Of a stretch of DNA of 64,000 bases, positions 9,193 through 26,671 are shown piece after piece. The notes below the pieces were generated by a model. The model did not search any database, was not told where the DNA came from, and saw nothing but the letters and a program-made list of their open reading frames with translations. The stretch covers positions 15,337 to 79,336 of the forward strand of contig JAADFL010000187.1 in the NCBI GenBank assembly GCA_013152945.1, given 5' to 3'. Source of the DNA: Deltaproteobacteria bacterium. GTDB lineage: Bacteria; Myxococcota_A; JAADFL01. The position numbers were made by a program, and so were the translations under genes. How positions within the stretch are numbered: the stretch's first letter is position 1; every line of letters begins with the position of its first letter.

Positions 9193-9309
9193 ATGGCGAG
9201 ATCCAAGAGCAAGAAAAAAAGGATGCAACACAGACGGCGCACCAAATTGAACCGGCGCAAGTCCAGACAGAAGGCATCGACATCCGGCCTGTCGGAAACG
9301 ACACGATAG
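9193..9309 (+). CDS. 38-residue very basic small protein
   Basis: ATG at 9193 is preceded by GGAGG at 9181-9185 with an ideal seven-base spacer; the frame stops at TAG 9307-9309. The product begins MARSKSKKKRMQHRRRTKLN and roughly half of its residues are Lys or Arg; it has no Cys or hydrophobic segment. The composition resembles small ribosome- or RNA-bound proteins (Thx/bS22-like in style), but no family is assigned. It lies 30 bases upstream of nadD in the same orientation. The strong ribosome site in a short gap between two genes is the main reason to believe it is real. Confidence 0.6.
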   Translation: MARSKSKKKRMQHRRRTKLNRRKSRQKASTSGLSETTR

Positions 9310-9339
9310 GGCTGACGCCTATATCGGTCCGGGCATAAA

Positions 9340-9906: not shown

Positions 9907-10085
9907 AACACTTCCCGATTTCTTTCTAATCTTTGCCGATCGTTTTTTCCGGCATACCATCGAACGATTGGAGTAACCTGCAAGGAGCGACAACATGGTA
10001 ATACCTCCAGGTATTTCGAGGATGAGCAATAAAGCCGGGCGCTTCGAGAGCCGGCGGTATTTGGAATACTATTCTCCGAGCCCCT

Positions 10086-10601: not shown

Positions 10602-10623
10602 TGCATGCCCCTTATATCCTTCT

Positions 10624-13101
10624 TCATGTCTCTTTCGAGTTTTGTTGCACGGTCAGGGTCAGGGCATTGTTTGAAACATCTATTGCAACAACCTGCTTCT
10701 CCCCTACCCTGCCGGCGAGTATCATTTCAGCGACTCTTGATTCAAGCTCTTGTTGTACCATCCTGCGCATGGGCCTCGCACCCAACTCCGGATCAAATCC
10801 TCCCTCTTGTATCAGCCAATCTATCACTGCTTCGGTGGGCATGAATGATACGCCCTTTTCCTGTTTCAACTTGCCTGAACTCTGCTCGACAAGCAATCTT
10901 GCAATCTCTTTTACCTCATTTCTGGACAACGGAGAAAACACGCACTTCTCATCAATCCTGTTCCAAAGCTCTATGGGAAAATGCGAACGAGCCGCCTTGA
11001 CGACTTTTTCCTCCACCTGCTCAAGCCTGTGACCGGATGGGGCTTCTGCAGAAAAGCCGATGGAATGATCTTTTTGCGAATAGTTGGCGGCTCCGAGGTT
11101 CGAGGTCATTATTATCACAGTGTTACTGAAGTCCACGGTTCTGCCCCGGCCGTCTGTAAGCCTCCCGTCATCAAGTGCCTGCAAGAGAATCAACAACACA
11201 TCCTGGTGAGCCTTCTCGATCTCGTCCAACAAAACCACCGAGTACGGTCTCCTCCTTATGGCCTCGGTCAACTGTCCTCCCTCGCCGTATCCTACGTACC
11301 CCGGTGGCGCACCGATAAGCCTTGCCACTGTATGAGCTTCTCCGTATTCACTCATATCAAACCTGCACAGAGCATCCCTGGTCTTGAACAGGAATTCAGC
11401 CAAGACTTTGGCGGTCTCGGTTTTACCCACTCCCGTCGGCCCCAGGAACAAGAACGATCCTATGGGCCTATTGGAATTGAAACCGGCATAGTTGCGCCTC
11501 AGTACACCCGCCACCTTGGACAATACCCTCTTGTGACCGACTATCCGACGCTCAAGTATTTCCTCGGCCTTCAGCATTCTTTGTTTTTCATCACCGGAAA
11601 GCAACTCGGGCGGGACACCGGCAAGGCCGCCGACGACTTCGGCTACCTCGCTTACAGTAACCTTTGTCTTCCCGTATCTCCTCGCCCTCGATGCAGCCAA
11701 GTCAACTATGTGTATGGCCTTGTCCGGAAGAACACGGTCCGGCACATACCTTGCCGAAAGCTTGACCGCCGCTTCCAGTGCCTCTCTTTCGAATTCGATC
11801 GAATGATGATTTTCGTAGGATGGAATAATTCCAATCAGAATATCCAATGATTCCGATATGGACGGCTCGGACACGAATATGGGATGAAACCTCCTTTTCA
11901 ATGCCGGATCACTCTCAACGAGTTCCTTGTACTCTTCGTCGGTTGTGGCACCTATACATGGAAATTCTCCTCGTGCAAGAGAAGCCTTGATCTCTGATGC
12001 AGGATCACCTCCCATCCTGGCCAAGGATGACATCTGGTGTATTTCATCCAGGAAAAGTATTACCCTGTCCTCCGCCGCCTTTACCTCTTCACGAAGGGAT
12101 TTCAGTCTGTCCACGAGTCCGCCCCGGTTCGATGATGGTGAAAGCAAAGAAGACAGATCTATGGCAACGAGCCTCTTGTCGGCCATTACCGCGACCTCCT
12201 CGGTCGCATTTACCTGTTTCCATGCAAGGCCTTCCACGAGAGCGGTTTTTCCAACGCCCGGAGGGCCGAGAAGTATTGGATTGTTGGCCCTTCTCTTTCC
12301 GAGGACATCGCAGATTTCCTCCACTTCCCGGCTGCGGCCTATGAGTGGATCGAGTTCACCTTCCTCTGCCGCTTCGGTCAGGTCGTAACCCAACTCGTTC
12401 AATATGGGAAATCTACCGGGATGCAATACAGGCCTGTTGTTCTTTGCAGCCATGCCTGTCAACTTGGAGTGCTTACGATCCCTTGTGGGAAGTTCAGAGG
12501 ACCCATCCTTAATATTTTCTACAGTTCTTCCGCCAATCGGCAATGCCGTATCCGCCGTCCCGGCGCTTTTCGGATTCACCGGGCGCCGCCCCGGTTTGGC
12601 CGCCACGGCAGATGCCTTTTGTGACGGCGGCCCCAATAGTTCAGTCGGCGCAGTGTAGACATTCGCCCTTGCATACCTTCTTGGAAGACCGTTCGTCAGG
12701 TATGACAAGGCAACAGTGCGCAGCTCACCAATCGGCCCCCTGGTACGGTTCAGGATTGCATAAGCCAACGAATCCTTGACACCGACGATAGCTACAATCA
12801 GGTGCAGTGAATTGGCCCTTGTATTCTTACACCCCTTTGCTACTGCGTCGATCTTATCTTTTACATTTTTCAGGACATCTCTTGGTTCGGTCAAAAAATC
12901 ATTTATACTCTTTCTCAATTCCAGGACCTTGCCGATAATAGTGTCCTCGTCAAACCTCAAGTCCTCCAAAAGAATTTTGGCATGGCTTTCTACGGTATAC
13001 ACAGCCAAGAGAAGGTGGGCAGTATTTAAATCCTGCTCGGTTGCCTCTGCAACCTCACCGGCCTGGCGGAATATTTCTTCCAGGTCATCGGAACGTAACA
13101 T
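10624..13101 (-). CDS. ClpA/ClpC-type AAA+ unfoldase
   Basis: 825 residues. It has a divergent Clp N-domain (about 1-150), a low-complexity linker to about 235, AAA module 1 with Walker A GPPGVGKT and Walker B VILFLDEIHQM, and AAA module 2 with GPTGVGKT and VVLLDEIEKAH. The long ClpB middle domain is absent. An IGF tripeptide (DHSIGFSAE) late in module 2 is in the place of the ClpP-binding loop, which suggests a ClpP partner rather than a disaggregase. No clpP is near. Such machines feed unfolded proteins to a peptidase in the cytoplasm. ATG 13101 has GAGAGG close upstream. Confidence 0.88.
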   Translation of the reverse strand: MLRSDDLEEIFRQAGEVAEATEQDLNTAHLLLAVYTVESHAKILLEDLRFDEDTIIGKVLELRKSINDFLTEPRDVLKNVKDKIDAVAKGCKNTRANSLHLIVAIVGVKDSLAYAILNRTRGPIGELRTVALSYLTNGLPRRYARANVYTAPTELLGPPSQKASAVAAKPGRRPVNPKSAGTADTALPIGGRTVENIKDGSSELPTRDRKHSKLTGMAAKNNRPVLHPGRFPILNELGYDLTEAAEEGELDPLIGRSREVEEICDVLGKRRANNPILLGPPGVGKTALVEGLAWKQVNATEEVAVMADKRLVAIDLSSLLSPSSNRGGLVDRLKSLREEVKAAEDRVILFLDEIHQMSSLARMGGDPASEIKASLARGEFPCIGATTDEEYKELVESDPALKRRFHPIFVSEPSISESLDILIGIIPSYENHHSIEFEREALEAAVKLSARYVPDRVLPDKAIHIVDLAASRARRYGKTKVTVSEVAEVVGGLAGVPPELLSGDEKQRMLKAEEILERRIVGHKRVLSKVAGVLRRNYAGFNSNRPIGSFLFLGPTGVGKTETAKVLAEFLFKTRDALCRFDMSEYGEAHTVARLIGAPPGYVGYGEGGQLTEAIRRRPYSVVLLDEIEKAHQDVLLILLQALDDGRLTDGRGRTVDFSNTVIIMTSNLGAANYSQKDHSIGFSAEAPSGHRLEQVEEKVVKAARSHFPIELWNRIDEKCVFSPLSRNEVKEIARLLVEQSSGKLKQEKGVSFMPTEAVIDWLIQEGGFDPELGARPMRRMVQQELESRVAEMILAGRVGEKQVVAIDVSNNALTLTVQQNSKET

Positions 13102-13629
13102 TACCTCTCAGCCTTCTCCATTCGTCTTTTGCAGACCAATTTAATTATTGGATATTAACAGAATTCGAAACAAACAAGCAATAGGAAATGGTGGGCGAGC
13201 CATCCGGTCTATATATAATGGGGACGTAATGGGGACGGATGCACACACATGGAAAGCACATGGAAGAGCACATGGGGGAGCACATGGGGACGGGGAGCAC
13301 ATGGGAGCACATGGGGACGGAGGGAGCGAGCACATGCATGGGACATGCATGGGGACGGAGGGAGCTAATCCCTTGAAATCTCACCTGATTTGCATATCAA
13401 TTTATTACCGGCACGACATGTTTCGGAAACTCTGTCACTTACATTTCTATTAGCCGGTCCGAAAGATACAAGCCAAGGTACATTAACTTTTGCATCGATA
13501 CCTTGTGTATGAATATCGCGACTTGGTGTAGGAATATTCAACGCTGATAAACCTCTCCGTTTTGTCGATGACTTATTAACTAACACAAAATGAACCGTAA
13601 TTGCAATATATAAGGACCCTAAATCGTCG
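13102..13629. other. Intergenic stretch with short tandem repeat
   Basis: No credible gene lies between the divergent clp gene and the Fe-S operon. Positions about 13218-13366 hold an irregular tandem repeat built on GAGCACATGGGGACGG, with variants of GCACATGG and GGGGACGG, followed by GGACGGAGGGAG. An inverted pair GAATAT (13511-13516) and ATATTC (13534-13539) lies about 100 bases upstream of the sigma-54 promoter. That is a reasonable distance for an enhancer-binding-protein site, but only the symmetry supports it. Short open frames across the repeat lack ribosome sites and have biased composition. Confidence 0.5.
13218..13366. repeat. Irregular tandem repeat of GAGCACATGGGGACGG units
   Basis: About eight partial copies of a GCACATGG core, several extended to GGGGACGG, are packed into 150 bases of otherwise AT-richer sequence. 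The copies differ in length and end with two ATGGGGACGGAGGGAG units. A similar ATGGGGACG pair sits just before, at about 13217-13236. Function is not evident. The purine-rich skew on one strand is marked. Confidence 0.6.
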
Positions 13630-13645
13630 TGGCATGCCTGTTGCT
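13630..13645 (+). promoter_or_regulatory. Sigma-54 (-24/-12) promoter of the Fe-S operon
   Basis: TGGCATGCCTGTTGCT matches the RpoN consensus TGGCACG-N4-TTGCW. The invariant GG (13631-13632) and GC (13643-13644) are separated by exactly 10 bases. Transcription would start about 13656, followed by an excellent ribosome site AGGAGGTGAT before ATG 13686. It implies control by a bacterial enhancer-binding protein, which is not encoded in the window. Confidence 0.75.
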
Positions 13646-13685
13646 TGTATATTTGGCAAGGGTTTGGAATAGGAGGTGATGTGAA

Positions 13686-14981
13686 ATGTCACAGGTAACA
13701 ATCAAGATAAACGGACACGAAGTCAAAGCTGAAAAGGGAGAGCCCATCTTGGGGCCGATTCGTGCACAAGGTATCGACATTCCTACTTTATGCCACATGG
13801 ATGGCGTGGAGCCTTACGGAGCATGTCGCCTCTGTATGGTCGAAGTAGGTAAAGGCGATCGTGCCAAGTTGGTTACGTCGTGTAATTTCCCGGCAAGGGA
13901 AGGGCTCGAGATCCAGACCGATACTGAAAGGGTGCATAGGGACAGGGCTATGCTGGCCGAACTGCTCTTGGCGCGCTCTCCAGGTGTAAAGAAGGTGCAG
14001 GAATTGGCAGTATCGCTGGGGGTGAAAAAGGCGCGATTCAAAACCATGGAACCGACCGAATGCCTGCTTTGCGGACTTTGTGTTCGAGTGTGTAATGAAA
14101 TCGTGGGCGCCTCGGCCATCGGTTTCGAGGGCCGCGGAGTCGACCGCGTGGTAGGAACACCTTTTTTCCTCGATCCCGATGCCTGTATAGCCTGTGGTGC
14201 ATGTACCGAAGTGTGTCCCACGGGTATCATGCAGATGGAGATAAAAACCAAGGAACGATGGAAAAAGGAACTTGTCGGCAACCAGAGGCTTTGCCGCTAT
14301 GCCCGCATGGGGCTTGTCCCGTACAAGGTCTGTCCCAATGACTTTGACTGTGCTACCTGCGAGGTCGACCAGCGTCTTTGGGATGAGATGGGCATGCACC
14401 CGGTATTGGCTCTGGCCCCCGGCAAGAAGCGAAAACCCAGGCAAGTCGGAAATTTTGTCACAATGCTTGATCGTTTCTATTCCAAGGGGCATGTCTGGGT
14501 CAAACCACTGGGGGAAAGGGTAATCGTGGGCCTTGATGATTTCGCCCAGAAGGTCATCGGAGATATCTCCTCCATTACAATAGGAGCAAAGCCCGGAGAT
14601 GTAGTACACAAGGGGAAAGATAGCCTTAATGTGGCTTGTAACGGCCATAGCGCCGCCATGCTTTTCCCGATATCAGGCACAATAAAGAGCATCAACCCGG
14701 CCATGGATGACGAGCCTACGGTGATAAACGAAGATTGCTACCGGCGCGGATGGCTCTTTACTGTTGAGCCTACAGACCAGTACAGGGAAACCAAAGACTT
14801 GGTCGCTTCCGGTCAAGTGGAGCCATGGATGTTGGAGGAATCGGATTTTCTGTTCAAGACCTTGAGTGAGGTCGGCGGTGCTGCATTGTCTGATGGCGGT
14901 GAGCTGTTGCCCAACTTCTCCAGGGAACTTGCGGATGATGAATGGGATCGCATTGCAAAAAGATTTTTCTCAAAGGTCTGA
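13686..14981 (+). CDS. NuoG/HydA-N-terminal-like Fe-S protein fused to a Cys4 motif and an H-protein-like domain
   Basis: 431 residues. Domains in order: plant-type [2Fe-2S] with Cys36, 47, 50, 66; a helical stretch where NuoG/HydA usually carry the His-Cys3 cluster motif, here without those ligands; two [4Fe-4S] sites (Cys126/129/132/136 and 167/170/173/177); a motif C-x12-C-x5-C-x2-C (Cys203, 216, 222, 225); and from about 262 to 370 a domain resembling glycine-cleavage H protein (KGHVWVKPLGERVIVGLDDFAQ). At the usual lipoyl-lysine position relative to FPISG the residue is Gly320, not Lys. No H-cluster domain follows. First gene of the operon, so probably the electron-exit subunit in place of HydA. 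The ribosome site is very strong. Confidence 0.85.
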   Translation: MSQVTIKINGHEVKAEKGEPILGPIRAQGIDIPTLCHMDGVEPYGACRLCMVEVGKGDRAKLVTSCNFPAREGLEIQTDTERVHRDRAMLAELLLARSPGVKKVQELAVSLGVKKARFKTMEPTECLLCGLCVRVCNEIVGASAIGFEGRGVDRVVGTPFFLDPDACIACGACTEVCPTGIMQMEIKTKERWKKELVGNQRLCRYARMGLVPYKVCPNDFDCATCEVDQRLWDEMGMHPVLALAPGKKRKPRQVGNFVTMLDRFYSKGHVWVKPLGERVIVGLDDFAQKVIGDISSITIGAKPGDVVHKGKDSLNVACNGHSAAMLFPISGTIKSINPAMDDEPTVINEDCYRRGWLFTVEPTDQYRETKDLVASGQVEPWMLEESDFLFKTLSEVGGAALSDGGELLPNFSRELADDEWDRIAKRFFSKV

Positions 14982-15018
14982 AACAAGAATCCGAAGCCGA
15001 TGGATGGGGAGGTGTGAC

Positions 15019-15957
15019 ATGTCCGGGAATATCAAGAACAAAAAGAAATTGGTAAAAGCCTCGTCGGGACAGTGTATCTGGGTTGATGCGGGAGTCATAT
15101 CCTACAGACTTTGTACATTGAACTACGAGTGCGAACGGTGCTCGTTGCACCAGGCTCTGATAGACAGCCCCGTATTGGTTCAGCCCGGCATGAGCCTGAC
15201 CTTGGACCAGGCGGAGTTCGAAGAACGGCGCGCCGAGTTCGACAAATTTTTCGAAAAGCTTCCTGCAGAGGCCCGTAAGTGTCGGTACATGTTGACCGGT
15301 GATGTTTCATACAAGTTGTGTATCAACTCGTTTCGGTGTGCAAGTTGTTCTTTTCAGCAAATGATGGAGGACTCGATTACAGCCGAAGTAACAATTCAGC
15401 CAAGTAAAACAGATGTTATATATGGGCTTCGTTTCAAAGGGGACCTGCACTACCACAGGGGGCATGTCTGGGCCCGAGTCGAACGCGAGGGTGATGTTCG
15501 AATCGGGCTTGACGATTTCGGACAGCAATTACTGGGCCCGATCCGGGAAGTCGACTTGCCTGGAATTGGTGATGCTGTGTACGAGGGTGTTTCAGCATGT
15601 AAACTTGGACACAAGCAGGGCGGCATACATGTACAGACGCCCATCTCCGGGCGAATCATTGCTGTAAACAAAATGGTATCAGAGCATCCGGAGCTTATTA
15701 ACGATTCGCCTTACAACAAAGGATGGCTGTACATAGTCAAACCTCACGACCTGCCATCAGAACTCGTGAACCTGCTTTATGGAACAGAAGCCAGGCACTG
15801 GTTCGAACAGGAAATCAACAGGGTGGTCAAACGTTTATACAGGGATTCCGGGAAGAGAAAGGTTGTTTCGATAGAAAAAGGCGCTATCTGGAAGGAATGT
15901 GACTGCATCGAGATGGCAAACGAATTCTTACTGGCGGTGCTTGAAAAAGCGGCCTAG
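15019..15957 (+). CDS. Protein with two Cys4 motifs and an H-protein-like domain
   Basis: 312 residues from ATG 15019, chosen because GGGGAGGTG is just upstream and an earlier frame start would overlap the previous gene by more than 100 bases. It has two copies of the same C-x12-C-x5-C-x2-C motif found once in the preceding protein: Cys19/32/38/41 and Cys88/101/107/110, each followed within about five residues by Gln. A third segment, about residues 135-245, is H-protein-like (YHRGHVWARVEREGDVRIGLDDFGQ). Next to TPISG the nearest lysine is Lys199, one place off the canonical lipoyl position. It is clearly a relative of the C-terminal half of the preceding product, and probably a partner in the same complex. 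No published function is known to me. Confidence 0.8.
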   Translation: MSGNIKNKKKLVKASSGQCIWVDAGVISYRLCTLNYECERCSLHQALIDSPVLVQPGMSLTLDQAEFEERRAEFDKFFEKLPAEARKCRYMLTGDVSYKLCINSFRCASCSFQQMMEDSITAEVTIQPSKTDVIYGLRFKGDLHYHRGHVWARVEREGDVRIGLDDFGQQLLGPIREVDLPGIGDAVYEGVSACKLGHKQGGIHVQTPISGRIIAVNKMVSEHPELINDSPYNKGWLYIVKPHDLPSELVNLLYGTEARHWFEQEINRVVKRLYRDSGKRKVVSIEKGAIWKECDCIEMANEFLLAVLEKAA

Positions 15958-16004
15958 GGGCTGCTTGTGACTCGCTGGTTTGTAAGAAAGGAGGACAAGA
16001 CAAG

Positions 16005-16478
16005 ATGGAAGTACAGCCGAATGATGTTGACAATATTGTCGACCGCTGGAGAGGCGACAGGAGTTACCTGATCGAAATGCTCCAGGATGTACAGGAACAA
16101 TTTCACTACATTCCAAAGGAAGTGGCGGAGAAATTGTCCAGTGATCTGGACGTGCCTTTGACTCACATTTTTCATATTACGACCTTCTACAAGGGCTTTA
16201 CCCTCGAGCCGCGCGGGAAGTATCCAATTTCCGTCTGCACCGGCACGGCATGCCATGTTAAGGGCGGAGCGCGCATCTTGGAAAATGTTATGCGCGAACT
16301 AAATGTGAGTCGCGAGGGCGAGGCAACCCCGGACGGCCTTTTTAGCGTGGAATCGGTTCGTTGCCTCGGGTGTTGTGGCCTCGCCCCCGTTGTAACCGTA
16401 GGTGATGATGTCTACGGCCGTACCTCGTCAACCAAGGTCAACCGGCTAATCAAGCGGATAAAGGGGAAAGAGCGATGA
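16005..16478 (+). CDS. NuoE/HydC-type [2Fe-2S] subunit
   Basis: 157 residues, the normal size for NuoE-like proteins. The thioredoxin-fold [2Fe-2S] site is CTGTACHVKG (C-x4-C) and CLGCCGLAP (C-x3-C). The N-terminal helical part (YLIEMLQDVQEQFHYIPKEV) is typical. In complexes of the HydABC/NuoEFG kind this subunit carries a cluster beside the flavin subunit. It lies between the Cys-motif protein and the ferredoxin/NuoF genes, has a GGAGG site before ATG 16005, and is spaced for co-transcription. Confidence 0.92.
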   Translation: MEVQPNDVDNIVDRWRGDRSYLIEMLQDVQEQFHYIPKEVAEKLSSDLDVPLTHIFHITTFYKGFTLEPRGKYPISVCTGTACHVKGGARILENVMRELNVSREGEATPDGLFSVESVRCLGCCGLAPVVTVGDDVYGRTSSTKVNRLIKRIKGKER

Positions 16479-16506
16479 GAGTATACAGATTACTTGGAGG
16501 TGATTT

Positions 16507-16890
16507 ATGCCAAAACTGAAAATCGAAGACCTCGACAAGATCGTGGAGCAAAGCAAAAAGACCATGTCTGTTAGGTATGGCGCAGGCAGGGTCAAGATTA
16601 CTGTGCACATGGGTACTTGCGGGATTTCGGCCGGTGCACGGGACATACTGTCTGCAGTCATGCGTTGTGTGGAGGACTCCGGCGTCGATGACATCATTGT
16701 TACCACTTCCGGCTGTGCAGGCCTTTGTAGCCGCGAGCCGATGATGACTGTAGAGGTTGTTCAACACCCCCCTGTGAAATATGTGGATTTGAACGAAAAA
16801 AAGGTCAAGGAGATTTTCGATGAGCATGTAATGAAAGGAAATATCGTCGAAGACTATGCTTTGGCCATAGGCGGAGAACAGATGCTATGA
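16507..16890 (+). CDS. Small thioredoxin-like [2Fe-2S] protein
   Basis: 127 residues with the pattern MGTCGISAGARDIL and SGCAGLCSREPMM of the (2Fe-2S) ferredoxin-domain proteins that accompany NuoF/HydB in [FeFe]-hydrogenase and related loci. The usual paired first cysteine is absent, and another Cys is at VMRCVEDSG. Its role is presumably to carry a cluster within or to the complex. It has GGAGGTG before its ATG, and its stop overlaps the start of the next gene (ATGA), so translation of the two is coupled. Confidence 0.85.
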   Translation: MPKLKIEDLDKIVEQSKKTMSVRYGAGRVKITVHMGTCGISAGARDILSAVMRCVEDSGVDDIIVTTSGCAGLCSREPMMTVEVVQHPPVKYVDLNEKKVKEIFDEHVMKGNIVEDYALAIGGEQML

Positions 16891-18758
16891 GTACAATACC
16901 AAAACAAGTTTTGGAAGAATCGCAGACTGCGGGCAGGGATTTGAGCAGGTTTCGAATGCAGCTCATGCTGTGCTCTGGAACTGCTTGTGTCTCAAGTGGC
17001 TCCCATAAGATCAAAGATGCCTTGGAACGGGAGTTGGCCAAACAAAATCTTGACGACGAGGTGGCGGTTGTTATGACCGGATGCAATGGTTTTTGCGCCC
17101 AGGGACCGGTCATGGTAGTTCAGCCGGACGGAATCTTCTACCAACTTTTAAGCGATAAGGACATACCCCTTTTGGTCGAAGAGCATATGCTTAAAGGCCG
17201 GCCGGTCGAGAAGCTCATGTATAAACCATCAGCAACCAAAACCGCAGTGCCGAAGATGAGTGAGATAGGTTTTTTCAAGAAGCAACGTCTTCTGGCACTT
17301 AGGAACCGGGGGCTGATCGACCCGGAAAAAATCGAGGAGTACATTGCTCGCGACGGGTACAAGGCCCTGGCCAAGGTACTCACAAAGATGAAACCGGAAG
17401 AGGTGGTCCAAGAGATGATTGCATCCGGCCTGCGTGGACGTGGAGGCGGTGGTTTTCCGACCGGTATCAAGTGGAAGACATGCCGTGATGCTCCGGAAAG
17501 CCCTAAGTATGTTGTATGCAATGCAGACGAGGGCGACCCCGGTGCATACATGGACAGGAGTATAGTGGAATCAGATCCCCACGTCGTGCTTGAGGGTATG
17601 GCCATAGCAGCCTATGCCGTCGGCGCCAAGAAAGGCTATGTGTACATTCGCCACGAGTATCCACTCGCACTCAAGCGCCTGCAAAAGGCAATTGCCGATG
17701 CCAGGGAATATGGTCTGTTGGGAAAAAATATCCTGGACCAGGGCTTTGATTTCGATATCTCCATTCACCTTGGAGCCGGCGCTTTTGTCTGTGGCGAATC
17801 GACGGCACTCATGGCATCGATGGAAGGGCGTGTGGGTGAACCCCGCGCCAAGTATATCCATACCGTCGAACATGGCTTATGGGATCGCCCCACAAACCTC
17901 AACAACGTGGAAACATATGCCAATGTGCCGCAAATCATGCTGCGGGGGTCAAAATGGTTTACCTCGATAGGTACCGGTGATGTCAGCAAGAGCCCTTGGG
18001 GCGGAAGCAAGGGAACCAAAGTCTTTTCCCTGGTCGGCAAGGTGAAAAACACGGGCCTGGTTGAAGTTCCCATGGGCACGACATTGAGGGAAATCATCTT
18101 CGACATTGGTGGTGGCATTTCAAACGGCAAGAAGTTCAAGGCAGTACAAACAGGTGGACCCTCGGGCGGGGTGATTCCGGAGAGTCTGCTGGACCTGCCT
18201 GTGGATTTCGACCAACTCACCAAAGTAGGCTCCATGATGGGTTCAGGCGGCATGATCGTGATGAACGAAGATGACTGCATGGTGGATATTGCAAGATATT
18301 TTATTGACTTCTTGGTTGGCGAGTCATGCGGTAAATGTCTTCCGTGCCGTGAAGGCTTGCGGCAGATGAGTTCCATGCTCAATGACATCTGCAGTGGCAA
18401 GGCAGAGAAAGGGACCATCGATCTCCTGGAGAATCTTTGTTATACAGTGCGTGATACCGCGTTATGCGCCCTGGGACGGGGTGCGGTCAATCCTGTCCTG
18501 ACAACGATCAAATATTTCAGGGAGGAGTACGAGGCACACATAAACAAGAAGAAATGTCCGGCCGGTGTATGCAAGGCTCTCATTACCTATAAAATAGATG
18601 CCGGGAAGTGTAACGGCTGTACATTATGTGCAAGGGAATGCCCACAACAGGCCATTACAGGTGAAAAGCTGAAACCGCACAAGATTAATACTGATTTATG
18701 TATCAGATGCGGTGTCTGCCGGGATGTATGTAACCAGGATGCGGTTTATGTGAAATAA
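16887..18758 (+). CDS. NuoF/HydB-type NADH-binding flavoprotein with extra Fe-S domains
   Basis: 623 residues with the HydB layout. An N-terminal thioredoxin-like [2Fe-2S] domain (CSGTAC, GCNGFC) is followed by the FMN/NAD core with GLRGRGGGGFPTGIKWK, CNADEGDPGAYMDRS and GAGAFVCGESTALMASMEG. Next is the NuoF [4Fe-4S] site ESCGKCLPCREG. Last is a C-terminal ferredoxin with two [4Fe-4S] motifs (CNGCTLCARECP, CIRCGVCRDVCN). Enzymes with this added C-terminal ferredoxin are the flavin subunits of the bifurcating HydABC/Bfu group. It should oxidise or reduce NAD(H) and pass electrons to the neighbouring Fe-S proteins in the cytoplasm. It starts in an ATGA overlap with the preceding gene. Confidence 0.93.
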   Translation: MSTIPKQVLEESQTAGRDLSRFRMQLMLCSGTACVSSGSHKIKDALERELAKQNLDDEVAVVMTGCNGFCAQGPVMVVQPDGIFYQLLSDKDIPLLVEEHMLKGRPVEKLMYKPSATKTAVPKMSEIGFFKKQRLLALRNRGLIDPEKIEEYIARDGYKALAKVLTKMKPEEVVQEMIASGLRGRGGGGFPTGIKWKTCRDAPESPKYVVCNADEGDPGAYMDRSIVESDPHVVLEGMAIAAYAVGAKKGYVYIRHEYPLALKRLQKAIADAREYGLLGKNILDQGFDFDISIHLGAGAFVCGESTALMASMEGRVGEPRAKYIHTVEHGLWDRPTNLNNVETYANVPQIMLRGSKWFTSIGTGDVSKSPWGGSKGTKVFSLVGKVKNTGLVEVPMGTTLREIIFDIGGGISNGKKFKAVQTGGPSGGVIPESLLDLPVDFDQLTKVGSMMGSGGMIVMNEDDCMVDIARYFIDFLVGESCGKCLPCREGLRQMSSMLNDICSGKAEKGTIDLLENLCYTVRDTALCALGRGAVNPVLTTIKYFREEYEAHINKKKCPAGVCKALITYKIDAGKCNGCTLCARECPQQAITGEKLKPHKINTDLCIRCGVCRDVCNQDAVYVK

Positions 18759-18802
18759 GATACAGATGTGGGCTTGGCGATGCTGGGGATAGGTAACCCG
18801 AC

Positions 18803-19618
18803 ATGACGCTTAAAGAGCTTGTGAGCCTCCTTGAAGCCGATGTGCTTTTCGGCGAACGGCATTTGGATGACGAATTCAGATGTGTCAGTGCGTCGGATCT
18901 CATGAGTGACGTTCTGGCATTTGGTGTCCCGGGGGTTGTCATTTTGACGGGATTGCCGAATACCCAGTCCATATGTACTGCAGATATTGTAGAAGCAAAA
19001 GCCGTGGTCTATGTGCGCGGCAAGAGACCGGACCGGGAGGGAATCCTGTTGGCGCAGGAGAGAGATATTCCCATACTGTCGACCAAGTTCTTCATGTACA
19101 AGGCATGCGGGTTGCTGTACAGCCGGAGTATCGAGGGAGTGGAAAAAACCAGCAATGAATATGCTGACAGCATGGTCAACAGCCGTAATTTTTCACGTGT
19201 CTTCAAGATCAAAGGCGGGAATTTTTCAAAGGCCGGTTCAGCGTCGATAGAGACCAAGGAGATCCTTCGCGAGTTAGGTGTCGATCCGGTCATTGTCCGT
19301 CGTGCGGCCATAGTTGCCTATGAAGCCGAGATGAATGTCGTCATGTACGCCGACAATGGGGAGATGGTAATAACGGTAAATCCCGATGCCATCCGTATCC
19401 GCTTACAGGACCAAGGGCCGGGCATCAAGGACATTGATGCTGCGATGCAGGAAGGCTTTTCCACTGCATCCGACGAGATACGGGAGATGGGATTCGGTGC
19501 CGGCATGGGCCTGCCGAATATCAAAAAGAACGCGGACGTGTTCGAGTTGACTACGACTGTCGGCAAGGGCACATGTTACAAAATCGTCATATACCTGGAT
19601 TCCAGGGGGCGGACATGA
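18803..19618 (+). CDS. DRTGG-domain protein fused to an anti-sigma-type ATPase domain
   Basis: 271 residues. The N-terminal ~110 residues (MTLKELVSLLEADVLFG through DIPILSTKFFMYKACGLLY) are a DRTGG-type domain, related to the separate DRTGG gene later in this operon. The C-terminal half from about 145 is a GHKL/HATPase fold: AAIVAYEAEMNVVMYA as the N box, LQDQGPGIKD as G1 and FGAGMGLPNIKKNAD as G2. In similar hydrogenase loci these two domains occur as separate proteins; here they are one. A regulatory role for the complex or the sensory subunit is inferred. Its stop overlaps the next start (ATGA). Confidence 0.82.
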   Translation: MTLKELVSLLEADVLFGERHLDDEFRCVSASDLMSDVLAFGVPGVVILTGLPNTQSICTADIVEAKAVVYVRGKRPDREGILLAQERDIPILSTKFFMYKACGLLYSRSIEGVEKTSNEYADSMVNSRNFSRVFKIKGGNFSKAGSASIETKEILRELGVDPVIVRRAAIVAYEAEMNVVMYADNGEMVITVNPDAIRIRLQDQGPGIKDIDAAMQEGFSTASDEIREMGFGAGMGLPNIKKNADVFELTTTVGKGTCYKIVIYLDSRGRT

Positions 19619-20982
19619 GTAAATATTTCCATTCGGTAAGAGTTGATGAATCGAAATGCGATGGTCGCCGGAGGTGCATGAGGGTATGTCCTACCCAGGC
19701 GATCCGGGTAAGAAACAATAGGGCGGTAATCCTGGAAGAGAAATGCATTGATTGCGGAGAGTGTATCACGGCCTGCCCAAATGAGGCCATCGTGGCATTG
19801 ACCAATCCAATCGGTGAGCTGAAGCGATTCAATTACACGGTAGCGATACCTTCGCCGACACTCTACGCGCAATTCGGCAGATCTATTCTACCGGATCAAA
19901 TTTTGGCGGGTTTGAAGAAAATAGGGTTCGACGATGCAGTCGATTTGGCTATAATCTGTGGAGATACCAGCCTGGCCACAGAATATTTTTTGGGTGATTA
20001 CAGTGGTCCAAAGCCGCTGATTTTCAATTCCTGCCCTGCAGTCGTGAGCCTTATACAGGTCAGATACCCACAACTCGTAGATCACATCATTCCTCTCAAG
20101 GAACCCAAGAGCCTTGCTGCAAAGGAAGTCAAGGAACGAAAATCAAAAGAACTTGGGCTCAAACCCGAAGATATTGGGACATTTTACATCACACCATGCC
20201 CTGTCAAGATGCTTGCCATCCAGCAGCCTCCTTCCAAGGAAATGTGCCATCTGGATGGGGCAATCTCTATTGCCGACATCTACGGACCACTGCTGTCGGC
20301 GCTTGAGGGCGAAGACAAGGACAGCTATCGCAGGAATCTCGAAAGCGTCTGTATCCTTGGAATCGGGTGGGCCGTTGCCGGCGGAATGCACCGTACCCAG
20401 AACATGAAGAATGTCGTCGATGTTTCAGGTATTTCGGAAATCATCACTACCTTTGATGATATCGAGCAGGGCAAGTTGCAGAACGTGGACCTGGTCGTGG
20501 CATATGCCTGTCCGCAGGGTTGCGTCGGCGGATCATTGACAGTGGAAAACCGTTATATTTCCTATAACAAGATACTTCGTCTGCTTGAGACCCTCGAACA
20601 GGAAAACATAGAGGCATGTCGGGACAAGCGGGAAATTCTCGAACGTTATCAGCAAAAGTATTTCCACAGGCGGCAAAAATACGAACCGCGGCCCATGCAG
20701 GCGCTCGATAAAGATCTGGGCAAGGCCATAAGAAAACGCGAAGAAAAGCAGCGCTTATATGATTCCTTGTCCAAGGTGGACTGTGGAATATGCGGCGCCC
20801 CGACATGCCTTTGTTTCGCAGAGGATGTTGTCATGGGAAATGCGCAACCGTCTGACTGCATTTTCAATGTTCCCCGTAGATTCAAGGAGCTTACAGCCGA
20901 GCTGTCTGAACTCTTGGACGCCTTTGGCTCAATGGGCATGGATAAAATTGAAGGGCACAAACCGGGAAAAGTGGAGAAATAA
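19615..20982 (+). CDS. HydS-like [FeFe]-hydrogenase-domain protein
   Basis: 455 residues from the ATG at 19615, inside the previous stop codon. An N-terminal ferredoxin has one incomplete site (Cys15, 21, 25; the second Cys is Arg18) and one complete site (Cys44/47/50/54). The H-cluster domain keeps four possible cubane ligands: Cys140 in NSCPAV, Cys195 in TPCPVK with Lys198, and Cys299 and Cys303 in ACPQGCVGG. The proton-relay Cys of TSCCP enzymes is Ser139. The C-terminus adds a C-x2-C-x4-C-x16-C Fe-S motif (Cys390, 393, 398, 415). These features fit the sensory HydS-like groups rather than a hydrogen-producing enzyme. Family and context suggest redox or hydrogen sensing; catalysis is not excluded. 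Confidence 0.85.
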   Translation: MSKYFHSVRVDESKCDGRRRCMRVCPTQAIRVRNNRAVILEEKCIDCGECITACPNEAIVALTNPIGELKRFNYTVAIPSPTLYAQFGRSILPDQILAGLKKIGFDDAVDLAIICGDTSLATEYFLGDYSGPKPLIFNSCPAVVSLIQVRYPQLVDHIIPLKEPKSLAAKEVKERKSKELGLKPEDIGTFYITPCPVKMLAIQQPPSKEMCHLDGAISIADIYGPLLSALEGEDKDSYRRNLESVCILGIGWAVAGGMHRTQNMKNVVDVSGISEIITTFDDIEQGKLQNVDLVVAYACPQGCVGGSLTVENRYISYNKILRLLETLEQENIEACRDKREILERYQQKYFHRRQKYEPRPMQALDKDLGKAIRKREEKQRLYDSLSKVDCGICGAPTCLCFAEDVVMGNAQPSDCIFNVPRRFKELTAELSELLDAFGSMGMDKIEGHKPGKVEK

Positions 20983-20985
20983 ATC

Positions 20986-21324
20986 ATGACCTTGGCAGAG
21001 ATTGTCGAAAGATTGGGGCTTTGTGTTTTGACGTCGAAAAAAATCCGGGATACCGATGTGACCGGAGGCTATACGTGTGATCTATTAAGTGATGTGATTG
21101 CCAACAGCAAGGTGGGGAATCTCTGGATCACCGTGCAAATACACGAAAATGTTTTGGCAGTAGCCAAGCTCAAGGACCTCGCGGGAATTGTATTGGTAAA
21201 TGGCCGCAGGCCCGATGAAAGCGTGACCAGGAAGGCCGACGAGGAGAACGTTGCGATCTTGGGCACTGATGAATCTGCCTTCGAGATCTCCGGGCGGCTT
21301 TACCGGTTGATCAATAAAATGTAG
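20986..21324 (+). CDS. DRTGG-domain protein
   Basis: 112 residues, a single DRTGG-type domain (MTLAEIVERLGLCVLTSKK, GGYTCDLLSDVIANSK, LAGIVLVNGRRPDESVTRKA) that aligns in outline with the first domain of the fused protein at 18803. Domains of this type are found in phosphotransacetylase-related and regulatory proteins and accompany HydS-type genes in many anaerobes. The function is not established. It starts three bases after the HydS-like gene and ends six bases before the PHP gene. Confidence 0.85.
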   Translation: MTLAEIVERLGLCVLTSKKIRDTDVTGGYTCDLLSDVIANSKVGNLWITVQIHENVLAVAKLKDLAGIVLVNGRRPDESVTRKADEENVAILGTDESAFEISGRLYRLINKM

Positions 21325-21330
21325 TTCACG

Positions 21331-22062
21331 ATGCTGAGAACTTTCAAGGCCGACTTGCACATTCATACCTGTCTTTCTCCTTGTGCCGAAGTGAAGATGT
21401 CACCGGCCGGAATCATCGATCGCGCAAAGGCTGTTGACCTCGACATACTGGGCATCTGTGATCACAACTCTGCGGAGAATACTCCGGCTGCCATGGAGGC
21501 GGCACAAAGACATGGTTTATATGTCCTTCCGGGAATGGAGATAACCTCTATGGAGGAGGTTCATCTACTGGCCTTGTTCGATGCGCTGGAGCCTGTACAC
21601 GTCCTTCAGGAGATCGTGTATGAACATCTGCCGGGCAAGAATGACGAGAAAGTCTTTGGCATGCAGGTGGTAGCCGGTGCCGACGACGAGGTCCTTGGTT
21701 TCAACCAGAAGCTCTTGATTGGAGCAACCACGCTTCAGTTGACGGAAATTGTAGAGGCAGTTCACTCACTGGGCGGTATCGCCGTTGCAGCACATATCGA
21801 TCGACAGAGTTTCGGTATTATCGGTCAGCTTGGTTTCATTCCCAAGGGCCTTGCCCTTGACGCTCTGGAGATCTCTGCACGAATTTCGAAGGAGAGAGCC
21901 ATTGACAAATATGGTTCCGGCCTGCCTTACGTCCAGTCATCCGATGCACACAGGCAGGAAGAAATCGGCCGGTGTCATACCATGTTTTCAATCGGGGATG
22001 TCAATATCCAGGAAATCCAAAAGGCCCTCAAGGGAATTGATGGCAGGAGAATCATGCGCTGA
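21331..22062 (+). CDS. PHP-domain metallohydrolase
   Basis: 243 residues. PHP metal ligands are visible: DLHIHTCLSP at the N-terminus, GICDHNSAENT, then GMEITSMEEVH, an AHIDRQSFG segment and the C-terminal SSDAHRQEEIG. PHP proteins hydrolyse phosphoesters, and this short stand-alone form regularly sits in HydS/DRTGG operons; its substrate there is unknown. The start lies six bases after the DRTGG stop. Its stop (TGA) overlaps the next ATG by one base pair step (ATGGAAG begins at 22062), so translation is coupled. Confidence 0.85.
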   Translation: MLRTFKADLHIHTCLSPCAEVKMSPAGIIDRAKAVDLDILGICDHNSAENTPAAMEAAQRHGLYVLPGMEITSMEEVHLLALFDALEPVHVLQEIVYEHLPGKNDEKVFGMQVVAGADDEVLGFNQKLLIGATTLQLTEIVEAVHSLGGIAVAAHIDRQSFGIIGQLGFIPKGLALDALEISARISKERAIDKYGSGLPYVQSSDAHRQEEIGRCHTMFSIGDVNIQEIQKALKGIDGRRIMR

Positions 22063-22601
22063 TGGAAGACCTGTCGCTACACTTGTTGGATATAATGGAA
22101 AATTCCATCGAGGCGGACGCACACAGAATAGATATCACCATTGACGAGGATCTGAATAACAACCTGCTTACGCTGGAAATCAGTGACGATGGAAAAGGCA
22201 TGGATACGCAGATGCTGAAGATGGCTGCTGATCCATTTTTCACCACCCGAAAGACGAGGCGTTTCGGCCTGGGATTGTCCATGATTTCCGAGTCTGCAAG
22301 GGCAACCGGGGGTGAATTGACGCTTGAGTCAAAACCCGGAAAAGGCACTTGTGTACGGGCGGTCTTTCATAGGAACCATATCGACATGAAACCGTTGGGA
22401 GATATACCAAAGACGCTGTTGACCGTGATTTTTGGACATCCTGAAATAGATTTGAGCTATCATCATGTTGTTGGCATGAAGGAATTTTCTTTTACTACCA
22501 TGGATTATAGAGAGGCGCCTATCAACTCTCCAAATGTGTTGCGACGACTGGCAGAAATCATGCGCAAAGGTATTGACGGCTTGAAAATACGCGGGAGCTG
22601 A
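22062..22601 (+). CDS. GHKL ATP-binding protein (histidine-kinase-like, no kinase core)
   Basis: 179 residues. It is essentially an isolated HATPase_c domain: LLDIMENSIEADAHRID (N box), ISDDGKGMDTQML (G1), FFTTRKTRRFGLGLSMISESARATGG (F and G2). A short C-terminal extension of about 60 residues follows. There is no DHp or phospho-acceptor His. Proteins like this end HydS-type operons and may act as anti-sigma-like or switch kinases together with the fused DRTGG-ATPase earlier in the operon. It is the last intact gene of the operon. Confidence 0.85.
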   Translation: MEDLSLHLLDIMENSIEADAHRIDITIDEDLNNNLLTLEISDDGKGMDTQMLKMAADPFFTTRKTRRFGLGLSMISESARATGGELTLESKPGKGTCVRAVFHRNHIDMKPLGDIPKTLLTVIFGHPEIDLSYHHVVGMKEFSFTTMDYREAPINSPNVLRRLAEIMRKGIDGLKIRGS

Positions 22602-22763
22602 ATTGGTCTGTACCCCGGTTCCGTCAGGGATTATCACCTGAAGACAGTTGCCATATGCTGATTTCACCGGTTTTTTACCCCAGGCAGGGACGGGTGAAGA
22701 TTTTAAAAAATCGAGGGAAGCAAGAATAAGACGCCGCATAGCAGCATCTAGTGGAGCCTTGCA

Positions 22764-23565
22764 GGTTACCTTGACGAGCCCCTGTCTGATGCAGCATACA
22801 ACGTGCGGGACGGTTACCTGTACCTGTTCGGCGGTCTGACAGCCATGGGCCTTACAAACGGCTTGACAAGGAAGACATAAACACTGGCGAGGTATCTGTT
22901 CCTGATGTGACTGTGATAGGGTCAGAGGACACAGGAGACTGCGACGGCGATGGAGAGACTGACCCTGGGTACGGGCTCTTCTGCGGTGGCGAGCCCAACT
23001 GGTGGGACGACCTTGGCTGGGCGGTTTGCGACCAGGGCGAGCTTGTGTGCTCGTCAGGGTCGAAGGATGCCGAGGCCCTGCTCGACGCCAGGCTTCCTGT
23101 GCGGTCCTTCAGCCTGAAGGTGGTTGGAGACAGGGCTTACCTTGGCACTGCCTGGGGAGTGCTCTGCCTGGACGTGAGCGAGCCTTCATCTCCGGGGTTC
23201 GAGTTCTTTGTGCCGTTCGGCAGGGTGAACGACGTGGAAACGAATTTCAATGAGCCGAATCAAAAAAGCCTGTCACCGCCTGTTACAGTGCCCACAAGCC
23301 TTGGCGACAGGACCCCGGCCTTGTGTACGCCGTCATTGGCAAAAGCGATTACTACACCCACGACGTGGTTCAGATAGTATTCTTCAATCAATCAACGAGT
23401 CCCGCCACGATCTTGACCTGTTATTTCAGAGAGCTTGGCGCAAGTCCCGTAGGCACATATCGGATAGGTGATAGCCTGGTGAAGGCGCCCGTGACGTATT
23501 CATTGTTCAAACGTCCCCTGTTGACAATTACAGAGGATGTCTGCTTGTCTTGTGTTGTTTCATAA
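22764..23565 (+). pseudogene. Decayed secreted beta-propeller (LVIVD-type) gene
   Basis: Three frames carry successive pieces of one protein. The piece at about 22764-22880 reads YLDEPLSDAAYNVRDGYLY. The piece from about 22880 to 23270 reads NTGEVSVPDVTVIG, then GDCDGDGETDPGYG and GDRAYLGTAWGVLCLDVSEP. The piece from about 23320 reads VYAVIGKSDYYTHDVVQIV. The GDRAYL...LDVSEPSSPG segment is an LVIVD-style propeller blade, usually found in secreted proteins. At least two frameshifts and no start or signal sequence show that it is not functional. Its richer GC and acidic Asp/Gly content differ from the neighbouring operon. The stretch 22602-22763 shows nothing else. Confidence 0.7.
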
Positions 23566-23583
23566 TGCCTTGCTGGAGGATAC

Positions 23584-25017
23584 TTGGAATACACTGTTTT
23601 ATTGGTTTCTTTCATATCCTATCTTGCCCTTGCTGTTGTCTGGATATTACTTGAAAAAAAACGGCCTACGTCTACCTTGGCATGGATACTGGTGCTGGTA
23701 TTCATCCCATTTTTCGGTATGTTGCTGTATTTACTCATAGGGAGGCATCGTGCAAAGAAAGAGGTCAGGCTGAGGGCAGCATCATTCGCGCAATTGGCGC
23801 CTACACTTTCTGAAGCAGCAGCGTTCGACAAGGGACTTGCCCCGTTTTTACCCGGACCCGGCGACGGCCGATACCTGCCGGTAGTGGAACTTTCACGCAA
23901 CATAGGTTATGCGCCGATAACCCATGGAAACAAGGTGGAGATATTCCTTGACGGCGTGGCCAAGCACCAGGCCCTTTTCAATGCAGTGCGCAACGCGCAG
24001 CGCTTTGTGCACCTCGAGTACTATATCTTTCAACCCGACGACACGGGCATGCAATTAATGGACATTCTAAAGGACAAGGCCAGGCATGGCATAGAAGTCA
24101 GGTTGCTGGTCGATGGCGTGGGGTCGTACGCGCTTTGCCAGGACTATCTCGAGGAATTGGAAGAGGCGGGCGTGGAAACCGGAATATTCCATCCTCTGCC
24201 TGTGGCCATTTGGAAGAACAGGATCAACTATCGCAACCACAGGAAGATAGCGGTCATAGACGGCAGGACCGGCTTCCTGGGTGGGATGAACATCGGAGAT
24301 GAGTACATGGCTGGAAAGTCCGGGGAGCTTCCATGGAGGGATACGCACTTAAGTGTCAAGGGTCCTGCAGTATGGGGGCTGCAAAGGATTTTTTCCGAAG
24401 ATTGGCACCTTGCAACGGGTAAGGTCCTGGCCCATGCCGATTATTTTCCAAGACCGATGGAAATGGGCTCCGACTTGGTGCAGATCATGGCGAGCGGTCC
24501 TGATATGAACTGGTCGGCCATTCATTATCTCTATTTTACTGCCATTTCAACTGCAGAGAAGAACGTTCGAATAACTACACCGTACTTTGTGCCGGATGAA
24601 CCGTTGCTACTGGCTTTGAGGACATCTTCATTGCGCGGAATCGACGTGGAAATATTGGTGCCGGGAAAGACTGATTTACCCTTGGTGACTTTTGCCGGAA
24701 GGAGCTACTATGAAGATCTACTGGATGTCGGGGTAAAAATTCACGAATACCAACCAAGGGTCCTGCATGCCAAGGTCCTGACAGTGGACCAAAGATTTGC
24801 CGGCCTTGGTAGCGCGAACATGGATATCAGGTCTTTCCAACTGAACTATGAAGTCGGTGCTTTCGTGCACAGCAAGGAACGGGCAGGGCAGCTCGATAAA
24901 CAGTTTGAAAAGGATTTGCTGGAGAGCAAGGAAGTGAATCTCGATGCCTGGAATAACCGGGGATTTAGCAGGAAACTAATAGAATCATCGGCAAGGTTGC
25001 TGTCGCCGCTGTTGTAG
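23584..25017 (+). CDS. cls: Cardiolipin synthase (phospholipase D family)
   Basis: 477 residues, the usual length. Two transmembrane helices are at the N-terminus (about 1-50: VSFISYLALAVVWILLEKKR and WILVLVFIPFFGMLLYLLIG). Two HKD motifs follow: NHRKIAVIDGRTGFLGGMNIGDEY and HAKVLTVDQRFAGLGSANMDIRS. It joins two phosphatidylglycerols to cardiolipin at the inner membrane. The start is the TTG at 23584 with GGAGG four bases upstream; the nearest ATG codons would cut into the first membrane helix. Confidence 0.93.
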   Translation: MEYTVLLVSFISYLALAVVWILLEKKRPTSTLAWILVLVFIPFFGMLLYLLIGRHRAKKEVRLRAASFAQLAPTLSEAAAFDKGLAPFLPGPGDGRYLPVVELSRNIGYAPITHGNKVEIFLDGVAKHQALFNAVRNAQRFVHLEYYIFQPDDTGMQLMDILKDKARHGIEVRLLVDGVGSYALCQDYLEELEEAGVETGIFHPLPVAIWKNRINYRNHRKIAVIDGRTGFLGGMNIGDEYMAGKSGELPWRDTHLSVKGPAVWGLQRIFSEDWHLATGKVLAHADYFPRPMEMGSDLVQIMASGPDMNWSAIHYLYFTAISTAEKNVRITTPYFVPDEPLLLALRTSSLRGIDVEILVPGKTDLPLVTFAGRSYYEDLLDVGVKIHEYQPRVLHAKVLTVDQRFAGLGSANMDIRSFQLNYEVGAFVHSKERAGQLDKQFEKDLLESKEVNLDAWNNRGFSRKLIESSARLLSPLL

Positions 25018-25045
25018 AAATATTCTCGTTGTCAAAGCTCTGTGC

Positions 25046-26671
25046 CTACCAGTCGAGGGGTATGTCACAGAGAACCGATGCGTCCAGTTGCATGAGACCC
25101 GCCTTGAGCTTTCCCCGGCTCATCAGCCAGCTTTCAACCCATGGAGTTTTTAGGAAAGCGGCCAGTCGTTTCAGATCTTTTTTTGTATCGGCTCCGGCGG
25201 CTTTTATTATGTTTACTCCAAGGTCGACGAATAAGGGTTCCCCGGTGAACAATAGGGAAATGGACCGGCACTGCCTTGGAACGAAGATCTTCGGGCCGAG
25301 AAAGATTTCCTGGTTTCGCGGCCAATGGAGGTGGAACCAATCCCTGGCGCCGTTCCTTGTCTCGCGCCTTTGTTCCAGTATTGGTCTGAACCTTGAAAGA
25401 TGCTCCAACAGGGCAGGATAAGCATGAATGTCCGTGCAAGTGTTTTTTGTTAGGTAGAGAACTTTTCGGCTCACTGTCGGTCGGTCACCCAGGAGATCAG
25501 ATTGGCGTAAAAAATCCCTGAACAAATTTTCCGGAACTCCGGACGATATCAATGAGCGGGCCTTGCTTGTTGAAAGGATGAAAACACCCTCACCAGGAGT
25601 AAAACCATGATCTTTGGCCCACTTTGAAGCAGCCTTCGGGGTCGGATCCATGTCATGAGCTTCAAGGACCCTTGCAATGGCCTTTATCGAGGCCTTTGCC
25701 GGCCCTGGTACCAGCCCTTGGCTGACAGTGAAATAATCTCCAAGTCTTGGCGCCCCACGGTGCCTTATTGCCGGCGCCGGAAACCAAGGCAGCCTATCAC
25801 CCGAATTTTTCGGTTGCGAACCGAACCATGATACAGCTCTGCCTTGAGGCTTGCCCCGGATGGCTTCCACAACTTGATTCAAACCCGGTCCTGGTATTTT
25901 CCATGTCAGGCGTTCCACCGGAACAGACTTGTGAAAACCGCCTTGTCTCAAAATCAGCAGGACTGCCGGTTGGGCGATATTCGGGCCGAAAGGCCTTCCA
26001 CCCAAGTCCATTAGGCACAACAATGTGCCTTCTCTTGCTATTCTTGCCCGGAGGGATCTTGCAGAGTCAGAATCTGCGAAAGATGAAGGGAGTATCAAAC
26101 AAAGCAAGCCGTTGATTTCGAGCAGGTCCAGGGCCTTGGAAACAAAATGCAGCGACAGGTCGCCCCTTGGGGCCTTCAGCCCTGAAAAACGGGCTGCCTG
26201 TGCAAGTGTGTCTGAATGATCTTCCTCTCCCAGGTGTGGGGGATTACCGATTATGAGGTCGTAACGACCGGGCCCCGGCCATGGGCCGGCCAATCCGTTG
26301 GAACTCGATATCCGGTTTCCAGCCTCTTGGGGCGGCATGCCTGCAGTCACCAAGACTTTTCTCGTCGCCTCGACTGCTTTGAAATCCTTGTCCATTCCAT
26401 ATAATGTATGGATTGCCTCCTCTCGGCCGAGCCCCTTGCCTACCAGGCCGGCAAAAGCAGCGCCAAGAAAAACACCGCTTCCGCAGGCAGGATCCAGGAT
26501 TGCCCTTGGAACCCGGTCAAGCTTGTCCAGCGCCAGTGCAACAGCCGCTGTTGCGAGTTTCGGCGGTGTGTAATAGGCACCCATGTGGCGTCTTTTTGAA
26601 TCGAGATGGGACAATCTTGCCTTGCCGAGGTCTGATGCCAGTTGGAGCAGATCTTCAGGTAATGTCTTCAT
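25046..26671 (-). CDS. Adenine-specific DNA methyltransferase (TaqI-like), no restriction partner seen
   Basis: 541 residues. The S-adenosylmethionine site is ILDPACGSGVFLGAAF (about residue 60). The catalytic motif IV reads IIGNPPHLGEE, that is NPPH where the family nearly always has NPPY or NPPF. A variable C-terminal half from about 300, with TKNTCTDIHAYPALLEHL and a late FLKTPWVESWLMS segment, is like the TaqI/Eco57I target-recognition region. It would methylate adenine N6 in an unknown site. No nuclease gene is adjacent, so it is an orphan methyltransferase in this window. It follows the flavoprotein gene by 23 bases. Confidence 0.85.
   Translation of the reverse strand: MKTLPEDLLQLASDLGKARLSHLDSKRRHMGAYYTPPKLATAAVALALDKLDRVPRAILDPACGSGVFLGAAFAGLVGKGLGREEAIHTLYGMDKDFKAVEATRKVLVTAGMPPQEAGNRISSSNGLAGPWPGPGRYDLIIGNPPHLGEEDHSDTLAQAARFSGLKAPRGDLSLHFVSKALDLLEINGLLCLILPSSFADSDSARSLRARIAREGTLLCLMDLGGRPFGPNIAQPAVLLILRQGGFHKSVPVERLTWKIPGPGLNQVVEAIRGKPQGRAVSWFGSQPKNSGDRLPWFPAPAIRHRGAPRLGDYFTVSQGLVPGPAKASIKAIARVLEAHDMDPTPKAASKWAKDHGFTPGEGVFILSTSKARSLISSGVPENLFRDFLRQSDLLGDRPTVSRKVLYLTKNTCTDIHAYPALLEHLSRFRPILEQRRETRNGARDWFHLHWPRNQEIFLGPKIFVPRQCRSISLLFTGEPLFVDLGVNIIKAAGADTKKDLKRLAAFLKTPWVESWLMSRGKLKAGLMQLDASVLCDIPLDW

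Follow-up and report, generated by a model that had tools for sequence, protein, structure and literature searches.

A putative Type 2 Bfu module with a GcvH-like extension on BfuA and a candidate Hdr/Qmo-like partner in an uncultured Myxococcota-like bacterium

Among described electron-bifurcating systems, the Type 2 Bfu enzymes come closest to the locus considered here: their BfuA is short and carries three clusters (A1, A2 and A4, without A3 and A5), and extra subunits feed in the electrons of a third substrate (PMC9304861). In Bam-Bfu the joining of BfuABC to an HdrA module provides a precedent for an Hdr-type partner (PMC9304861), and coupling of NADH, ferredoxin and Hdr in FlxABCD-HdrABC is known through work that PMC10553843 cites. 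The published Bfu survey leaves 17 BfuB clades without an assigned function, and its text contains no mention of "GcvH" or "glycine cleavage" (PMC9304861). The locus lies at 13686-22601 of a 64,000-nucleotide stretch (the window) of contig JAADFL010000187.1 from a Deltaproteobacteria bacterium. Its genes from 13686 to 18758 would encode a Type 2 Bfu module whose BfuA is modified. We favor, with moderate confidence, the reading that NADH, ferredoxin and an Hdr/Qmo-like complex exchange electrons through this module, the Hdr/Qmo side being linked probably to sulfur or quinone. The locus hints at a new combination of two energy-saving machines that are already known, Bfu and an Hdr-like complex; no description of the architecture was found in the open-licence literature.

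Ten same-strand genes make up the locus. They are spaced by -46 to +47 nt, and the first of them are preceded by good ribosome-binding sites. An open reading frame check and Pfam/NCBIfam searches agree with the composition, order and tight coupling first described from the letters alone (here, the sequence-only reading). The promoter and the proximal genes are:

13630..13645, + strand: sigma-54 type -24/-12 promoter, TGGCATGCCTGTTGCT, a consensus match about 40 nt 5' of P1
13686..14981, + strand: P1, a BfuA (HoxU/NuoG-like 2Fe-2S plus 2x4Fe-4S) fused to a Cys4 motif and a non-lipoylatable GcvH-like domain
14292..14360, + strand: P1 Cys4 motif (C203, C216, C222, C225), invariant in 5/5 orthologues
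14475..14822, + strand: P1 GcvH-like domain (Pfam/NCBIfam and alignment), with Gly at the lipoyl Lys position and the invariant Cys351
15019..15957, + strand: P2, two Cys4 motifs, a GcvH-like domain and a C-terminal tail; NuoG part and lipoyl Lys both absent
16005..16478, + strand: BfuC (NuoE/HydC), with C1 [2Fe-2S] ligands C78, C83, C120 and C124
16507..16890, + strand: separate thioredoxin-like [2Fe-2S]-type protein, one of the four usual Cys replaced; 76% identical in L090
16887..18758, + strand: BfuB (NuoF/HydB), with FMN/NAD site and clusters B1, B2, B3, B4 and B5

BfuB combines FMN/51K, SLBB and NADH_4Fe-4S domains with a C-terminal ferredoxin part (two 4Fe-4S clusters), and BfuC (NuoE) is a 2Fe-2S thioredoxin-like protein, which together have the composition of a Bfu core. 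Solved chains of bifurcating HydB/BfuB align with BfuB over almost its full length (best E 8e-240), and all cluster ligands of BfuBC are present, those of B1-B5 included. The B2 ligands C464, C502, H551, C557 and C562 align to C438, C476, H525, C531 and C536 of the solved NiFe-Bfu. Schut et al. (2022, PMC9304861) find the histidine of this set in virtually every bifurcating BfuB, and non-bifurcating homologues lack it. From ligands and domains the complex is likely to be of the NADH/ferredoxin bifurcating type. In a BfuB tree of 32 rows the window protein pairs with that of an Hdr-linked relative, G385 (support 100/100), and the pair lies inside a clade with the Bam and Por types (99/99) that leaves the HydA-linked BfuBs outside. 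The sequence-only reading had taken the locus for a hydrogenase operon in which HydA was replaced; this was weakened by the position of BfuB and by the short three-cluster BfuA, and was given up. Its broader proposal, a non-hydrogenase complex linked to NAD and ferredoxin and working with another redox partner, is supported. An orthologous BfuB at L079 (3313-4128) has no 2Fe-2S (B5) domain fused to its N-terminus, and B5 may be supplied there by the separate 2Fe-2S protein.

With a single 2Fe-2S motif and two for 4Fe-4S, P1 agrees with Type 2 Bfu in its number of clusters, and it lacks the His-Cys3 motif of HydA; by count, and by analogy with Bam-type BfuA, its clusters would be A1, A2 and A4, without A3 and A5. 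In the PDB it is matched best by a 247-aa subunit of 9mqx described as "chain G-like" (E 1e-36). Pfam/NCBIfam recognize the HoxU/NuoG-like part and a C-terminal GCV_H domain, as expected for the NuoG-like protein with fused Cys4 motif and H-protein-like domain that had been described. P2, which begins at ATG 15019 and is a GCV_H protein in the same searches, had been called a second such protein; it has the Cys4 and H-like parts (Cys4-Cys4-GCV_H) and lacks the NuoG-like Fe-S part. The motif C-x12-C-x5-C-x2-C is invariant in the P1 orthologues and occurs twice in P2. In the AlphaFold model of P2 the H domain has a pLDDT near 90 and resembles GcvH (TM-score by target about 0.9), and both Cys4 regions are of low confidence.

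Neither H-like domain has the lipoyl lysine of GcvH. In the alignment, that position is occupied by Gly in each of the five P1 orthologues, and by Gln or His in the P2 pair, so that lipoylation is excluded and the lipoyl-carrier reading was rejected; the real GcvH of the source genome, beside gcvP-like genes, retains the lysine. The other half of the earlier suggestion, a thiol-type carrier, gains indirect backing from the TusA, DsrE and CCG-domain HdrB encoded in the linked operon of relatives. GcvH-like proteins without lipoyl lysine are apparently a wider uncharacterized family. In other genomes, H-like proteins with Cys4-type motifs are encoded close to genes for a kinase, a sigma-54 regulator, an archaemetzincin and NrfD-like proteins. 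GcvH-like proteins at L046, L047 and L080 lie near DmsB-like Fe-S proteins and kinase genes, again in other genomes; those at L046 and L047, with NrfD-like membrane proteins nearby, proved on checking to lack the lipoyl lysine. Two 605-aa proteins adjoining a HydS module (L092 6397-8214 and L093 8423-10240) have an N-terminal Cys4-like motif and a C-terminal GcvH-like domain, and are preceded by sigma-54-like sites at 6345 and 8371, respectively.

The arrangement is not confined to the window. Scanning named genomes with a two-sequence P1 alignment turned up a contig of a Myxococcales metagenome-assembled genome (MAG), JALVPF010000360.1, which carries P1-P2-NuoE-Fd-NuoF in the same order and with the same fusion, at 68, 57, 74, 55 and 81% identity. 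Within that MAG's class (nine genomes searched), P1 occurs in three further genomes. Since order and fusion recur in a second MAG and P1 in three more genomes, the operon is more than chance. The sequence-only reading had offered as a check the co-occurrence of the first two genes with NuoEF; for the first gene it is supported.

In all three relatives with upstream sequence (G378, G384 and G385) P1 adjoins an Hdr cluster. The order in G385 and G384 is DsrE-like, TusA-like, MvhD, HdrA1, HdrA2, a small winged-helix-like protein, HdrC, HdrB (CCG), P1, NuoE and the 2Fe-2S protein, and G385 continues with NuoF, a histidine kinase, a sigma-54 regulator and an archaemetzincin; in G378 the end of HdrA2 is followed by HdrC, HdrB, DsrE-like, kinase, regulator, archaemetzincin, P1 and the start of P2. 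The subunits that feed electrons into a Type 2 enzyme have candidates adjoining P1 in the relatives, and these are present but unlinked in the source genome. There, contig C115 encodes, in order, TusA, MvhD, HdrA1, HdrA2, a winged-helix protein, a QmoC-like membrane protein, DsrE, a kinase, a regulator and an archaemetzincin. Identities to the relatives' proteins are 62% for TusA, 64% for MvhD, 60% for HdrA1, 54% for HdrA2, 74% for the histidine kinase and 75% for the response regulator. The HdrA2 search located this operon; a search for HdrB alone would have wrongly implied that there is no Hdr partner.

The promoter offers a further link. It is the sole exact sigma-54 consensus match in the 64 kb (0.20 expected), and equivalent sites precede P1 at L079 (61-76) and L089 (5943-5958), so that the site is conserved in three genomes. 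In the relatives a sigma-54 response regulator adjoins P1 or sits in the linked Hdr operon.

Several observations weigh against an Hdr/Qmo-like partner or limit its generality. The Hdr operon of the source genome is on a different contig from the Bfu operon, so the linkage there is not direct; given the HdrA2 orthologue within an ordered set on C115, a partner operon exists but is detached. No HdrB orthologue was found in the source genome, only distant CCG proteins (Bam-type ones and one adjoining glycolate-oxidase-like genes), and HdrC of the relatives is replaced by the QmoC-like protein, identified by eye from sequence pattern and predicted membrane segments. This replacement of HdrC/HdrB points to quinone. 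P2 is missing between P1 and NuoE in G384 and G385, so the arrangement does not require it. AlphaFold models P1 poorly (pLDDT 50). Finally, P1 is known from only five genomes, the source included. In a search of 377 genomes of the phylum only separate BfuA or separate H-like proteins turned up besides the window.

In the mechanism we favor, electrons would move between BfuB/BfuC and both NAD(H) and ferredoxin; the three clusters of P1 would conduct mid-potential electrons toward a separate oxidoreductase or away from it. The partner is most likely an HdrA1-HdrA2-MvhD complex, with HdrC/HdrB in the relatives and a quinone-facing QmoC-like membrane subunit in the source genome, whose operon also carries the sulfur carriers TusA and DsrE. 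The Cys4 and lipoate-free GcvH-like parts of P1, together with P2, would most likely be docking or coupling parts that join Bfu to Hdr/Qmo. Sigma-54 would switch the cluster on, probably via the histidine kinase, response regulator and archaemetzincin encoded with the Hdr genes. It is possible, and we put it forward tentatively, that the whole forms a double-bifurcating supercomplex in which the NADH/ferredoxin-linked Bfu is combined with an Hdr/Qmo unit fed by TusA/DsrE persulfide, the lipoate-free GcvH-like domain serving as a coupling or sulfur-presenting element. The proposal is a concrete architecture with a candidate partner (HdrA/MvhD/TusA), and a GcvH fold without lipoyl site is fused to a bifurcating-enzyme subunit; if true, it would tie the NADH/ferredoxin balance of uncultured Myxococcota-like bacteria to the chemistry of sulfane sulfur or quinones.

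A different third substrate might instead act directly on P1 and P2, for example a protein thiol or persulfide at the Cys4 and H-like domains in the manner of LbpA without lipoate, with the Hdr operon only co-regulated. The Bfu operon does stand alone in the source genome, Cys351 is invariant in P1 at a position where GcvH has Pro, and sHdr systems pair Hdr, TusA and DsrE with the GcvH-like LbpA (PMC6067878). The lysine strictly conserved in LbpA is absent here, however, a Type 2 BfuA needs an electron-feeding partner, and P1 lies directly 3' of the Hdr genes in G384 and G385; we regard direct action as unlikely.

The distal genes raise the question of a hydrogenase once more:

18803..19618, + strand: DRTGG-like plus HATPase (anti-sigma-like) protein; 64% identical in L092
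19573..20982, + strand: HydS-like protein, 2x4Fe-4S, PF02906 and C-terminal FeS (PF04060)
20986..21324, + strand: DRTGG protein
21331..22062, + strand: PHP-domain protein
22062..22601, + strand: HATPase (GHKL)

The HydS-like protein, the sole PF02906 protein of the source genome, could itself be the third partner: an [FeFe] enzyme resembling those of groups C/D and exchanging electrons with P1, as an unusual NADH/ferredoxin-linked hydrogenase or H2 sensor. Its module starts 44 nt after BfuB and is 76-78% identical in G384 and G385, where HydG is also encoded, and all four H-cluster Cys positions (C154, C209, C313 and C317 in the window protein) are retained, in those two genomes as well. Against this, Ser/Thr replaces the proton-transfer Cys, and the genome-wide search that tested the earlier claim that HydA and HydEFG are absent found no HydA and nothing over cut-off for HydF or HydG, in an assembly that is 94% complete and was not searched genome-wide for HydE; missing maturases could reflect that incompleteness, the main caveat here. 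In G385, moreover, HydG and HydE adjoin a normal, separate HydABC, which marks the Bfu-P1 complex as distinct from that hydrogenase, and the contigs examined from G377 include the P1 operon and encode no PF02906 protein. For these reasons HydS is treated as an accessory, most likely sensory, and a catalytic role is rather improbable; the HydS/DRTGG/PHP/HATPase genes would form a regulatory or redox-sensing appendage. Least probable of all is that the Cys4-H parts of P1 and P2 are sensory or regulatory and inform the histidine kinase/sigma-54 regulator set about the state of the electron-transfer complex: other Cys4/H-like proteins (L047, L092) do adjoin genes for a histidine kinase, a sigma-54 regulator, an archaemetzincin and DmsB/NrfD-like proteins, but such neighbors could equally reflect complexes being regulated, and 5/5 orthologues have the H-like domain in covalent fusion with BfuA.

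Other redox clusters of the source genome include a BamBCDEFGHI-like set on contig C212 (52500-72000, L062), with AOR-like, 4Fe-4S, HdrD-like, HdrA (1022 aa), MvhD, NuoE, NuoF and short BfuA proteins, which suggests anaerobic aromatic degradation. Two more BfuB-type NuoF clusters lie on C121 (L061) and at the start of C212 (L059), one of them with an 888-aa BfuA-fused oxidoreductase that is formate-dehydrogenase-like by eye, and complex I is encoded at C110 (L060). Within the window, a ClpA-like AAA+ ATPase (10624-13101, - strand) diverges from P1, and an Rfam search of 9000-26000 gave no match. A predicted lipoprotein at 38816-40354 (- strand) has long (DTDT)n/(DSDS)n repeats after its signal region; similar ones occur at L050, L051 and L118, in the source genome and relatives.

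How, then, does the locus compare with known systems? HydABC [FeFe] hydrogenase shares the NuoE/NuoF core and separate 2Fe-2S protein, but the window lacks an H-cluster BfuA domain and HydF/HydG, and its BfuB falls outside the HydA-linked groups. Class II benzoyl-CoA reductase (Bam) differs in that the tungsten subunit BamB is absent from the window operon and from the P1-linked Hdr operons, the Bam-like set at C212 being separate. FlxABCD-HdrABC can be likened in its NADH/ferredoxin/Hdr coupling, with Flx proteins as the NADH-oxidizing part there and NuoEF-type BfuBC here. The Hdr operon of the source genome resembles QmoABC in its two HdrA-type flavoproteins and membrane HdrC/E-like subunit, and differs in carrying TusA, MvhD and DsrE, with no AprAB seen alongside within 20 kb. 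With sHdr-LbpA sulfur oxidation (PMC6067878) the P1-linked set has in common the grouping of Hdr, TusA, DsrE and GcvH-like proteins; here, however, the lipoyl lysine is lost in P1 and P2, the H-like domain is fused to BfuA, and the Hdr genes are different. Nearest are the Type 2 Bfu enzymes (Bam-Bfu, Por-Bfu and Wor-Bfu; PMC9304861), which share the BfuBC core with FMN and six clusters and the short three-cluster BfuA. Unlike theirs, the window BfuA has a Cys4 motif and GcvH-like tail, and the window has no BamB/WOR, POR, CODH or hydrogenase subunit. The linkage to TusA and DsrE further sets the window-type complex apart from those enzymes.

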